52,308 nt of DNA from Acidimicrobiia bacterium. GTDB taxonomy: Bacteria > Actinomycetota > Acidimicrobiia > Spongiisociales > UBA5794. The DNA lies in contig JARFRN010000227.1 of the NCBI GenBank assembly GCA_029287195.1, positions 1 through 52,308 on the forward strand. The letters run 5' to 3'. This document shows positions 14,975 through 46,040 of this stretch, in pieces. The notes below the pieces were generated by a model that was given only the letters and a program-made list of their open reading frames with translations, ran no database searches and was not told the origin of the DNA. Numbering within the stretch: the first letter of the stretch is position 1; each line of letters opens with the position of its first letter. The translations under genes were made by a program, and so were the position numbers.

Positions 14975-15961
14975 TCAGAGTGCGGCCAGTCCGGTGGCCT
15001 CCCGGACGATTTGCTGAAAGCCCTCTGCCTTGGTGCGGGCATCCAGCGCTCCCCGCCGCATGATCCTGGCAACCTCTTCGTCGTCGAGGTTCTCGTAGGC
15101 ATTGCGGATCGGGGCCAGCGCGGCAATCACGGCATCGGCAACTGCGTCCTTGAACTTGCCGTAGCCACGCGACCCGTATTCCTCGACAAGATCGTCGATG
15201 GAGCGTTCGGTACAGGCCGACATGATCTCGAGCAAGTTGGAGATACCGGGCTTCCCCGCGGGATCGAAGCGCACGTCGGGATCGGAATCGGTCACAGCCG
15301 AGCGAATCTTCTTGCGCACCACATCAGGACTGTCGAGGATGAGCACACGGCTCTTGTCGTTGGGATCCGTTTTGGACATCTTGGACGTCGGGTCGGTGAG
15401 CGACATCACCCGGGACGTCGTTTCCGGGATGAGAGCGTCGGGGATGGGAAAAACCTCGCCGAAGCGGTTGTTGAATCGCTCCGCCAGATCCCGTGTCAAC
15501 TCGAGGTGCTGCCGCTGATCATCGCCGATCGGTACCAGGTTGGCGTGATACAGCAGGATGTCCGCTGCCATGAGCACCGGGTAGGCAAACAACCCCAGAT
15601 TGGCGGCCTCACCTTTGGCTACCTTGTCCTTGTACTGCGTCATCCGACCCAGCACCCCTGTCGGCGTCATCGCACCCAGAATCCAACTCAGCTCACTGTG
15701 CTGCGGTACCTGGCTCTGGAAGTAGAACAACGACCGATCCGGGTCGATTCCGGTGGCCATCAGCACCTTGGCCGCCTCGAGGCGGTCCGACTCGAACTGC
15801 TTCGGGTCATAGTCCACAGTGATCGCATGCAGATCGACAACGCAGTAGACGCAGTCATACGAATCCTGCAGCTTCACCCAGTTACGCAACGCTCCCAGGT
15901 AGTTGCCCAGGTGAACATTGCCGGTGGGCTGAAGCCCGGAAAAGACTGTCTGCCGATCCAC
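14975..15961 (-). CDS. trpS: Tryptophanyl-tRNA synthetase
   Basis: FSGLQPTGNVHLGNYLGALRNWV; KMSKT-type motif (SKMSKTDPND). Confidence 0.97.
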   Translation of the reverse strand: MDRQTVFSGLQPTGNVHLGNYLGALRNWVKLQDSYDCVYCVVDLHAITVDYDPKQFESDRLEAAKVLMATGIDPDRSLFYFQSQVPQHSELSWILGAMTPTGVLGRMTQYKDKVAKGEAANLGLFAYPVLMAADILLYHANLVPIGDDQRQHLELTRDLAERFNNRFGEVFPIPDALIPETTSRVMSLTDPTSKMSKTDPNDKSRVLILDSPDVVRKKIRSAVTDSDPDVRFDPAGKPGISNLLEIMSACTERSIDDLVEEYGSRGYGKFKDAVADAVIAALAPIRNAYENLDDEEVARIMRRGALDARTKAEGFQQIVREATGLAAL

Positions 15962-15979
15962 TCTGTCGATCCTCTCGTG

Positions 15980-16013
15980 AAAAAACGCCGGGGCTCGGCC
16001 TCCGGCGTTTTTT
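15980..16013 (-). terminator. Intrinsic terminator in the trpS 5' leader (attenuator candidate)
   Basis: Minus strand AAAAAACGCCGG-AGGCCGAGCC-CCGGCGTTTTTT: 12-bp stem incl. A/U arms, U6 tail. Confidence 0.85.
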
Positions 16014-16028
16014 GACGCGCGAAGGCGA

Positions 16029-16067
16029 CTACCGCTGCAGCCACCACCAGCTCTGCGTCAGTGCCAT
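16029..16067 (-). CDS. Putative Trp leader peptide MALTQSWWWLQR
   Basis: ATG GCA CTG ACG CAG AGC TGG TGG TGG CTG CAG CGG TAG; three consecutive Trp codons just upstream of the terminator that precedes trpS. Confidence 0.8.
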   Translation of the reverse strand: MALTQSWWWLQR

Positions 16068-16073
16068 CGCATC

Positions 16074-16102
16074 AGGTTACCGGTCGCTGGTCAACGGAAC
16101 AA
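16074..16102 (-). promoter_or_regulatory. Putative promoter of the trpS leader (TTGTTC-17-TAACCT)
   Basis: TANNNT -10 ends 6 nt before the leader-peptide ATG, as expected for a leaderless transcript. Confidence 0.55.
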
Positions 16103-16114
16103 TCTGAACAGAGC

Positions 16115-16141
16115 GAGGGGGCCGGACGTGCCGGCCCCCTC
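16115..16141 (-). terminator. Hairpin terminator candidate downstream of the rhodanese gene
   Basis: GAGGGGGCCGG-5 nt-CCGGCCCCCTC, 11-bp perfect stem; no clear U-tract. Confidence 0.6.
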
Positions 16142-16165: not shown

Positions 16166-17143
16166 TCAACCGGAGGTGACCTCCTCGCCTGCCTCTACCC
16201 AAGCCTGGTAGCTACCGGTGAACGCCTTGGCGTTATCGAAGCCAAGAACACCCAGCACCGGCATCGACAGAGAAGCACGGAAACCGGACTTGCAGTAGAC
16301 CACCACTGCCGCGTCCTTCGGGATCTGGTCCATGTTCTCCGTGATCGTGCGCAGTTCGATGTTGGTGGCATCGAGGATGTAGCCCTCGGCGTATTCGCCC
16401 GGGGTCCGAACGTCGAGAAGGAAAGCACCCGCATCGTGCGCGGTCTTCACTGCTTCCACATCACCGGCCGTCAGCCAGCCCTCGGGGATGGTGGAGAGCC
16501 AGCCGTCGACAGCTGCAACCAGCTCGGGTTCGAAGCCGGGATCGCCTACGGCCTCGGCCTCAACGGCCTCAGTCGAGACCTCTTCGCCGGCCTCGGTCCA
16601 TGCCAGCCAGCTGCCGGAATACGACAGGGCGTTGTCGTAACCCATCATCCGCAACGAGGAAACGGCCAAACCGGCGCGGTAACCGGACTTGCAGTACACG
16701 AAGACCTGACGGTCGGTCGGGATCTTGTCCACGTTGGCGCCAAGCTCACGCAACGGAATATTGACGGCCCCGGGGATGTGCCCCTCGGCATATTCTTCAG
16801 GCTGACGTACGTCGATGACCAATGCATCGCTGGCCTCGACTGCATCCTTGAAGGCGACCGTGTCGCCGACGTTCATCCATCCCTCAGGGATGGTGCTCTC
16901 GTACTCGTACACTGCGGCAACGAGATCGAACTCCTCCTCAGGAGCCGCGGTTGTCGTGGTCTCTTCGGGAGCCTCTGTGGTAGCTGCCGGCGCCTCTGTC
17001 GTCGGAGCAGCTGTGGTCGTCTCCAACGGAGGTACGGTGCCTTCAGTTGTATCTGAGGACTCGTCGTCGCCACCGCATGCGGCGGCGATCAAGCCAAAGG
17101 CCAGGAGCAGCCCGATCACAGAAATGCGACGGAGCATATTCAT
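16166..17143 (-). CDS. Lipoprotein with two tandem rhodanese domains
   Basis: Lipobox LIAAACGG, Thr/Ala-rich linker, two rhodanese copies each with a catalytic loop (VFVYCKSGYRAG, VVVYCKSGFRAS). Confidence 0.92.
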   Translation of the reverse strand: MNMLRRISVIGLLLAFGLIAAACGGDDESSDTTEGTVPPLETTTAAPTTEAPAATTEAPEETTTTAAPEEEFDLVAAVYEYESTIPEGWMNVGDTVAFKDAVEASDALVIDVRQPEEYAEGHIPGAVNIPLRELGANVDKIPTDRQVFVYCKSGYRAGLAVSSLRMMGYDNALSYSGSWLAWTEAGEEVSTEAVEAEAVGDPGFEPELVAAVDGWLSTIPEGWLTAGDVEAVKTAHDAGAFLLDVRTPGEYAEGYILDATNIELRTITENMDQIPKDAAVVVYCKSGFRASLSMPVLGVLGFDNAKAFTGSYQAWVEAGEEVTSG

Positions 17144-43909: not shown

Positions 43910-45733
43910 CTATTCGACGGTAACCGACTTGGCGAGGTTCCGGGGTTGGTCGATGTCGTGGCCGCGCAGCCGGGCAACGTGGTAAGCCAACAACTGCAGT
44001 GGAACCACTGCCGCTACCGGGCCCAGAAGGTCGTCGGCACGGGGGACCCGCAACACCCGGTGGGCGAACTTGTGGATCTGATCGTCGTCCTCGTAAGCAA
44101 CGGCAATCACCTTCCCGCCCCGGGCCTTTACCTCCTGCACGGCGGAGATCGTCTTGTCATAGAGTGCCTGCTGGGTAAGCACGACGATCACTGGGGTACC
44201 TTCGGTGATCAACGCAAGAGTCCCGTGCTTGAGCTCTCCGGCCGGCATCGCTTCCGAATGCAGGTAGCTGATCTCCTTGAGCTTGAGCGAGCCTTCCATC
44301 GCAACCGCATAGTCGAGGCCGCGACCGATGAAATACACGTCGTCGGCATCCACTATCGCCTCAGCTGCGGCCGAGATCTCGCTCTCCTGGTGTAACAGCT
44401 CCTCCACCTGAGCAGGCAGTTGACTGAGCCCGTGAGCAACGCGACCGGCGAGATCCTCGTCCACCACGCCCCGCACCCGGCCGATCCGTAGCGCAAGCAG
44501 GTATTGCGCAATCAGCATCGCCAGGTATGCCTTGGTCGAGGCTACCGAGATTTCAGGTCCGGCTCGCGTGTACAGGATGTCATCGGCCTCGCGCGACAGG
44601 GTGCTGCCGACGACGTTGGTCAAGGCAAGCAGCCGTGAGCCCCGCTCCTTGGCAAGCCGTGCGGCCGCCAACGTATCGGCAGTCTCCCCTGACTGGCTGA
44701 TCGCCACGGTGAGGCTCTTGGCCGAGATGAGCGGATCGTTGTAGCGCATCTCATGGGCGTACTCGACATTGGTGGGAATGCGCAACAGCCTGCGAAATAT
44801 CTCTTTGCCGACCAATCCGGCGTGATACGCCGTCCCGCAGGCGGTGATCCACAGCTCATCGAAGTCTCGGGCGAACTCGTCGTCGAACTTCACGTCCTCC
44901 AACCAGGCGTTCCCATATTCGTCGAGTCGTCCTGCCAGGGTTTCGGTGACTACGGCCGGCTGTTCGTGAATCTCTTTGAGCATGAAGTGCTCGAATCCAC
45001 CCTTCTCGGCCTGCTCCGCATCCCAGTCGACGTGCATGACCTCACGATCGATCACACCACCTTCGATCTTCTCGATCTGCGCCCCGTCTTCGGTGACGAC
45101 AACCAGCTCGCCGTCTTCCACGATCAGAAAATCTCTGGTGCGGTGGAGCACGGCAGGAATATCGGACGCAAGGAAAGTCTCTCCGTCGCCGAGGCCAACG
45201 ATAAGGGGGCTGATCCGACGCACGGCGACGATCTTGCCGGGTTCTCGCTTTGTCATTACGACGAGGGCGTAAGCACCTTCGGCTTTGGCAACGGCAGCGC
45301 GCACTGCTGCTCGCAGATCGCCGTCGTACTCCCGCGCTACGAGGTGGGCCAGGATCTCAGTGTCCGTCTCCGACATGAACCCGTGGCCGAGGTCTTCGAG
45401 TTCTTCCCGCAGGCTCTGGAAGTTCTCGATGATCCCATTGTGAACCACGACAAACTCGCCGGATGGATCCGTGTGGGGGTGGGCGTTGACGTCGCTGGGC
45501 TCACCGTGGGTAGCCCAGCGAGTATGACCGATACCGATCGTGCCCACCAGCGGGCTCGAATTGAGCAAGTCTGCAAGTCGGTCGATCTTGCCTTCCGCCT
45601 TGCGAACATCGATGTCGCCGTTGGTGACGGCGACGCCGGCGGAGTCATAACCGCGGTACTCCAGCCGCCTCAGCCCATCCAGCAGAATCGGAGCTGCCTG
45701 TTGTGGGCCGACATAGCCCATGATTCCGCACAC
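43910..45733 (-). CDS. glmS: Glutamine-fructose-6-phosphate aminotransferase
   Basis: (V/M)CGIMGYVGPQQAAPILLDGLRRLEYRGYDSAGVAV; SIS domains; GTG start; C-terminal PRNLAKSVTVE. Confidence 0.97.
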   Translation of the reverse strand: MCGIMGYVGPQQAAPILLDGLRRLEYRGYDSAGVAVTNGDIDVRKAEGKIDRLADLLNSSPLVGTIGIGHTRWATHGEPSDVNAHPHTDPSGEFVVVHNGIIENFQSLREELEDLGHGFMSETDTEILAHLVAREYDGDLRAAVRAAVAKAEGAYALVVMTKREPGKIVAVRRISPLIVGLGDGETFLASDIPAVLHRTRDFLIVEDGELVVVTEDGAQIEKIEGGVIDREVMHVDWDAEQAEKGGFEHFMLKEIHEQPAVVTETLAGRLDEYGNAWLEDVKFDDEFARDFDELWITACGTAYHAGLVGKEIFRRLLRIPTNVEYAHEMRYNDPLISAKSLTVAISQSGETADTLAAARLAKERGSRLLALTNVVGSTLSREADDILYTRAGPEISVASTKAYLAMLIAQYLLALRIGRVRGVVDEDLAGRVAHGLSQLPAQVEELLHQESEISAAAEAIVDADDVYFIGRGLDYAVAMEGSLKLKEISYLHSEAMPAGELKHGTLALITEGTPVIVVLTQQALYDKTISAVQEVKARGGKVIAVAYEDDDQIHKFAHRVLRVPRADDLLGPVAAVVPLQLLAYHVARLRGHDIDQPRNLAKSVTVE

Positions 45734-45794
45734 GCGCGAACCTCCATGTGTTGGGACCGGAGGAGTGCTGCAGAATCTGAGACTCTGCTCCACT

Positions 45795-45939
45795 TCGAGA
45801 TGACTTTGTCCCCGGAATCGCTCCCGGGCTTTTTCACCTCGTCACGGTCGTGGAGGACCGAGAGGGCACCCGCCGACTGATCGATACTCCCTCCACCTCG
45901 TCACCTCGGCCGCTTTGCATTCGGGCGAGGGCTGGCGCT
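45795..45939 (-). ncRNA. glmS self-cleaving ribozyme/riboswitch
   Basis: Minus strand A|GCGCCAGCCCTCG...CGAGGTGACGAGGTGGAGGGAGTATCGATCAGTCGGCGGGTGCCCTCTCGGTCCTCCACGACCGTGACGAGGTGAAAAAGCCCGGGAGCGATTCCGGGGACAAAG, matching the recalled glmS ribozyme core (GCGCC / UGACGAGG / UAUCGA-UCGGCGGGUGCC / P3 / P4), about 60 nt upstream of glmS. Confidence 0.93.
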
Positions 45940-46040
45940 TGAGATTTCTCCGGTCGGTTCAGTTGTTGGCGACAAGCCTAACTGGTCGGCGAATCAGGCG
46001 TTGAATCACATGCCCAGAATCGGCTAGGTCGACTAGGACA

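Follow-up and report, generated by a model that had tools for sequence, protein, structure and literature searches.

The gene for tryptophanyl-tRNA synthetase (trpS) in the genome of an uncultured member of the Acidimicrobiia is very probably controlled by a classical three-segment, ribosome-mediated transcription attenuator. A short leader ORF with three consecutive Trp codons lies between the predicted promoter and an intrinsic terminator, and the bases just past its stop codon form an antiterminator with the 5' arm of that terminator; this pairing covaries across the order to which the genome belongs. The 52,308-nucleotide stretch of DNA that was analysed, referred to below as the window, carries all parts of the element on its minus strand.

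Organization of the trpS locus

The gene itself (14975-15961, minus strand, GTG start at 15961) encodes a 328-aa tryptophan--tRNA ligase, identified by its match to TIGR00233 (340 bits, cut-off 176.75). A Shine-Dalgarno-like GAGAGG (15971-15976, minus strand) lies between the terminator and trpS and is also visible in other members of the genus. The genome, assembled as 305 contigs totalling 3.6 Mb and 83% complete, yielded one trpS copy; close named relatives are uncultured Acidimicrobiia, and the more complete of the leader-bearing relatives have one trpS each. Upstream of trpS is a gene for a predicted secreted protein or lipoprotein with two rhodanese-like domains (16166-17143, minus strand), followed by its own terminator-like inverted repeat at approximately 16117-16139; the promoter of the trpS leader sits between this repeat and the leader terminator. 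Elsewhere in the window, a glmS ribozyme (RF00234, 90.9 bits) occupies 45786-45950 on the minus strand, directly 5' of a glmS ORF (43910-45793, minus strand).

The first-pass annotation, made from the letters alone, had read a promoter, an ATG 7 nt beyond its -10 box, a 12-codon ORF with three consecutive Trp codons and, some 15 nt later, a U6-tailed terminator preceding trpS, and each of these parts was recovered. The promoter (16074-16102, minus strand), read from sequence, consists of a -35 element TTGTTC (16102-16097), a 17-nt spacer and a -10 element TAACCT (16079-16074), with 6 nt between TAACCT and the leader ATG at 16067. A consensus promoter scanner made no call at TTGTTC/TAACCT because the pair scores under the scanner threshold. 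From this geometry, the predicted transcription start is position 16067, the first base of the leader ATG, or a site near it, and the transcript would be leaderless. The leader ORF (16029-16067, minus strand) reads ATG GCA CTG ACG CAG AGC TGG TGG TGG CTG CAG CGG TAG and encodes MALTQSWWWLQR, with the Trp codons at positions 7-9 (16049-16041). Fifteen nucleotides separate its stop codon from the terminator hairpin (15980-16013, minus strand; AAAAAACGCCGGAGGCCGAGCCCCGGCGTTTTTT / AAAAAACGCCGGAGGCCGAGCCCCGGCGUUUUUU), which is supported by sequence, fold and conservation, carries the U6 tail and has an energy of -20.0 kcal/mol over its inner 30 nt. The leader as a whole is about 107 nt long, and the ORF, the segment following it and the terminator fill all of it.

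Conservation of the leader across the order

Comparison with related trpS upstream regions had been proposed in the first-pass annotation as a check on the Trp codons and the terminator, and both proved to be conserved. Upstream regions were collected from relatives and oriented by tblastn; a Trp-containing leader followed by an intrinsic terminator was present 5' of trpS at 34 of the 50 readable loci of the order, the window included, and these 34 loci are spread over six families. The leaders have 11-14 codons and 1-3 Trp residues, the first Trp usually being codon 7 or 8 and the stop falling 2-5 codons past the last Trp. Stop codons are swapped freely (TAG in 16 leaders, TGA in 15 and TAA in 3), as expected of coding sequence. 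Within the genus the peptides are MALTQSWWWLQR, MAMTQGWWWSQR, MAMAHSWWCSQR, MALTHHWWPKR, MTLSNSWWWSRR and MALTRNWWRTTR; those of other genera and families include MKMTGRWWWRS, MNSTNAWWRIS, MNTTIMQWWWQRI, MNVARSWWPDPT, MELVGSWWWRQR, MQTNRWWWPGER, MSCRRNWWWRSEPS, MITTSTQWWWSAV and MKSLVHVWWSRR, among others. The terminator stem is kept with compensatory changes across the 34 loci. A TANNNT box is found 6-10 nt 5' of the leader start at 32 of the 34 loci, and at 6-7 nt in 23 of them, a conserved distance that fits the geometry of a putative leaderless transcript; the TTG...-17-TAA..T spacing is readable in the five nearest relatives.

The frequency of such leaders was set against chance by counting RTG ORFs of 8-15 codons with a correctly placed WW upstream of trpS. 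These were found in 25 of 57 members of the order but in none of 40 genomes belonging to the remaining orders of this class (Fisher p = 1.3e-7); dinucleotide shuffles gave 2 in 3420. When a -10 box was also required, the counts were 22 of 57, 0 of 40 and 0 of 3420, respectively. The Trp leader 5' of trpS is not due to chance. Against the model, 9 of the 34 leaders have a single Trp codon only, and about one-third of the trpS genes of the order have no recognisable leader.

The presence of one Trp codon or none in some relatives would also suit a fossil leader ORF, with the terminator acting merely as an insulator of trpS from the upstream gene or as a fixed attenuator; the hairpin is nearly symmetric and could stop transcription on the plus strand as well. 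The upstream gene, however, has the terminator-like repeat of its own described above, with the promoter lying between the two hairpins. Moreover, trpS was located in five further species of the genus, all of which retain at least two Trp codons, the reading frame and the stop, and most of which retain the pairings. We regard a fossil leader or simple insulator as highly improbable.

Alternative pairings of the leader RNA

The first-pass annotation had seen by eye no obvious classical partner for an antiterminator; a clear one adjoins the leader stop and covaries. In the antiterminator (15998-16026, minus strand), segment 2 (16026-16015) starts just beyond the stop codon, reads GCCUUCG-C-GCGU with the single C bulged, and pairs with segment 3, ACGCCGGAGGC (16008-15998), in the 5' arm of the terminator. 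Eleven pairs close a CAAAAA loop, with an energy of -17.4 kcal/mol both as a duplex and in the nascent-RNA fold. Equivalent 2:3 pairings occur in relatives as CCUCC:GGAGG (L011, L018), GCCACC:GGUGGC (L032), GGCCGCC:GGCGGCC (L016, L045), GAUCCC:GGGGUC (L020), GAAUCGCC:GGCGAUUC (L037) and CGAGGUC:GACCUCG (L010). A weak antiterminator in three members (L006, L019 and L044) counts against the model.

A MAFFT alignment of the whole element left segment 2 out of register, so that covariation of 2:3 could not be counted by column there, and for this reason between-genome swaps and anchor-based counts were used instead. In the swap test, the energy of the 2:3 duplex from each genome was compared with that of segments exchanged between genomes (20000 permutations). 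Native pairs had a mean of -16.6 kcal/mol versus -13.4 kcal/mol for swapped pairs, and none of the permutations came this low (z between -7.4 and -7.5 over two runs; z = -6.4 after close relatives were thinned to 23 loci). Five control segments were swapped against segment 3 in the same way, namely the start of the ORF, its Trp-codon region, the promoter, the spacer and the sequence further downstream, and all gave |z| < 0.9. At the base after CCGG, which is bulged in many terminators, the pair with segment 2 is A:U, U:A, C:G, G:C or U:G depending on the species; such varied pairs are not demanded by the terminator alone. The 2:3 stem accounts for a conserved GCGCGC-like motif that lies between stop and terminator and makes up the inner, loop-adjacent half of this stem.

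The Trp codons themselves lie on the 5' side of a protector hairpin (16024-16045, minus strand), found in the minimum free energy fold, in which GGUGGCUGC, comprising Trp codons 8-9 and the following bases, pairs with GUAGUCGCC. This 1:2 hairpin is lengthened by pairing of UGACGC (16060-16055) with GCGUCA past the stop. The lowest-energy fold of the whole leader combines the 1:2 hairpin with the terminator (3:4), with z = -2.8 relative to shuffles, and the last 18 nt of the ORF pair better with their own segment 2 than with swapped ones (z = -4.3; -3.5 after dereplication). All three pairings, 1:2, 2:3 and 3:4, are supported, 1:2 less strongly than 2:3. Sequence and comparison show all of these parts to be present and conserved, with covariation in both the 2:3 and the 1:2 pairing.

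An alternative is that trpS is controlled by a T-box or riboswitch, that is, by an RNA that senses a tRNA or ligand, with the WWW ORF incidental. In Firmicutes many genes for synthetases are under T-box control, and in Actinobacteria ileS may be as well (PMC1262725). Here, however, no Rfam family was found over trpS at gathering score, and a permissive scan returned chance matches only, none of them credible; the Rfam T-box model specifically had no match at trpS in either scan. Between them, the ORF, segment 2 and the terminator fill the leader RNA, and the ORF is conserved as coding sequence. The probability of a T-box or riboswitch at this locus is accordingly negligible.

Proposed mechanism

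In the attenuator model, transcription would begin at or near the leader ATG, and a ribosome could load at the extreme 5' end of the RNA. With charged Trp-tRNA plentiful, the ribosome would pass UGG UGG UGG and reach the UAG stop, where its leading edge would mask segment 2, and the terminator would form before trpS. With charged Trp-tRNA scarce, it would stall on the Trp codons, breaking the 1:2 hairpin and leaving segment 2 free to pair with segment 3 as this emerges, so that RNA polymerase would continue into trpS. Without translation, the 1:2 hairpin would form and the terminator would prevail. Within this scheme, we infer where the ribosome would sit and how the switch would respond to charging of the tRNA. 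The parts themselves match the layout of leader-peptide attenuators as a class, in that a run of regulatory codons lies in a short ORF, an intrinsic terminator separates ORF and gene, an antiterminator excludes the terminator and is so placed that a ribosome would mask it from the stop codon and leave it free on stalling, a protector hairpin holds the regulatory codons, and the gene downstream serves the metabolism of the amino acid in question.

Alternative folds were computed, as the first-pass annotation had suggested, and those of the nascent RNA agree with this model. Nascent RNAs were folded at the point where the 5' arm of the terminator has just emerged, the ribosome being assumed to cover 16 nt counted from its P site. 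The antiterminator fold of the window had an energy of -17.4 kcal/mol with the ribosome stalled on Trp versus -5.4 kcal/mol once it stood at the stop codon, where it masks the 5' half of the antiterminator; the means over the 34 loci were -17.2 and -5.8 kcal/mol, respectively. In equilibrium folds with the ribosome footprint, the terminator still beats the antiterminator in most sequences, which counts against the model; a working switch would have to be kinetic, with an antiterminator that forms first and then lasts.

The attenuation of trpS claimed in the first-pass annotation thus gains support from the conserved Trp codons, frame, stop, terminator and promoter geometry at 34 loci, whereas its suggestion that the mechanism might differ, for example by ribosome occlusion, loses its basis now that an antiterminator has been found. 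If occlusion acted by itself, the footprint of a ribosome on the short ORF would block or permit the terminator with no true antiterminator involved, and with the 15-nt spacer of the window, a ribosome that has reached the stop does come to within a few bases of the foot of the terminator. In relatives, however, the gap of 17-32 nt between stop and terminator stem is too long for a stalled ribosome to reach the stem, a ribosome stalled on Trp sits still further upstream, and occlusion gives the 2:3 covariation no role. Occlusion as the sole mechanism is very unlikely, and the ribosome at the stop has only its usual part in attenuation. The T-box, riboswitch, occlusion-only and fossil-leader readings were all rejected.

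Distribution of the element and its relation to trpE

Within the class, the trpS element was found only in the order of the window. A covariance model built from the MAFFT alignment scored its own element at 82 bits and has little power outside the order; its matches in the phylum below approximately 36 bits are mostly due to chance, with the exceptions of L127 and G305 (L229). The latter is a Streptomyces-like second-trpS locus, and second trpS copies in large Streptomyces-like genomes have MTTRTCTQLWWAA-type leaders with similar promoter spacing (L225-L229). At L127 (near 1515-1600), in the distant actinobacterium G374, MMIHTAQWWWPTE and a terminator-like hairpin precede a trpS that aligns differently from the trpS of the window.

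No Trp leader was found at trpE of the genome of the window or of the other family members examined. In five members of the order (G037, G039, G043, G046 and G051), trpE is of a lower-scoring type and is preceded by a Trp leader, e.g. MSRTRTVAAGQWWWSPPY, and the trpE leaders of the order carry WW or WWW (L172, L173, L174, L260 and L262). The three that were fully read have a terminator-like hairpin with an arm able to pair with bases just past the leader stop. Leaders on both trpS and trpE were seen only in G046, the trpS upstream region of G039 having been left out of the reading. At trpE of the genome of the window (L159, G000:C23), TAACCT stands a few bases 5' of a possible ATG, which suggests a leaderless trpE mRNA, probably without an attenuator. 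It is an evenly balanced proposition that in this order the Trp attenuator would act on the only trpS, a housekeeping gene, instead of on trpE, that a shortage of charged tRNA-Trp would thereby raise the synthetase while trpE is without such a switch, and that lineages with the other type of trpE would have the switch on trpE, or in one genome on both.

Comparison with known attenuators

Attenuators of this kind are already known, including those of Streptomyces trpS genes with leaderless leaders. Reportedly, Vecchione and Sello described in 2010 a ribosome-mediated attenuator of an auxiliary, antibiotic-resistant trpS in Streptomyces coelicolor. An attenuator has also been predicted for trpS2 of S. 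avermitilis (PMC1262725). Like the element described here, the attenuators of these two species have a leader ORF with Trp codons and hairpins that should terminate transcription before trpS, and the Streptomyces-like second-copy loci (L225-L229) share the leaderless promoter geometry and have MTTRTCTQLWWAA-like leaders. The Streptomyces attenuators differ from that of the window in leader peptide and RNA sequence, and they control a second or auxiliary trpS, whereas the element described here would control what is apparently the sole trpS. In S. lividans TK24, a leaderless trpL2-trpS transcript with the leader MMTRTCTQLWRAA was seen by RNA-seq (PMC8079986); it likewise has a short ORF, apparently leaderless in the window too, and then hairpins before trpS, but a single Trp codon and no reported U-rich stretch, as opposed to the three Trp codons and U6 tail of the window.

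The trp biosynthetic attenuators of Streptomyces and Corynebacterium, among them the S. lividans trpE leader MFAHSTRNWWWTAHPAAH (PMC1262725, PMC8079986), resemble the element in their double or triple UGG and their mutually exclusive antiterminator and terminator; they control biosynthesis, whereas trpE in the genome of the window has no such leader. The leader of the Escherichia coli trp operon (Rfam RF00513, Trp_leader) follows the same 1:2, 2:3, 3:4 logic, and the RF00513 model had no match to the window at either the gathering or a permissive threshold. The E. coli trp leader has a 5' untranslated stretch, whereas the leader of the window is shorter and apparently leaderless. None of the papers searched ties Acidimicrobiia to such leader peptides. 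The novel points are the taxon, the proposed control of an apparently sole trpS while trpE is without such a leader, and the comparative proof of the structure.

Because the kind is well known, a specialist would be only moderately surprised. The element extends classical attenuation by leader peptides at a synthetase gene to a further order of Acidimicrobiia, most of whose members are uncultured, and comparison gives strong proof of the alternative hairpins in a leader of about 90 nt. The compact, apparently leaderless design, in which the ribosome would load at the first base, may be useful for the study of transcription-translation coupling in actinobacteria. The placement of the switch on trpS or on trpE raises the testable evolutionary question of which gene a lineage controls by the charging of tRNA-Trp.
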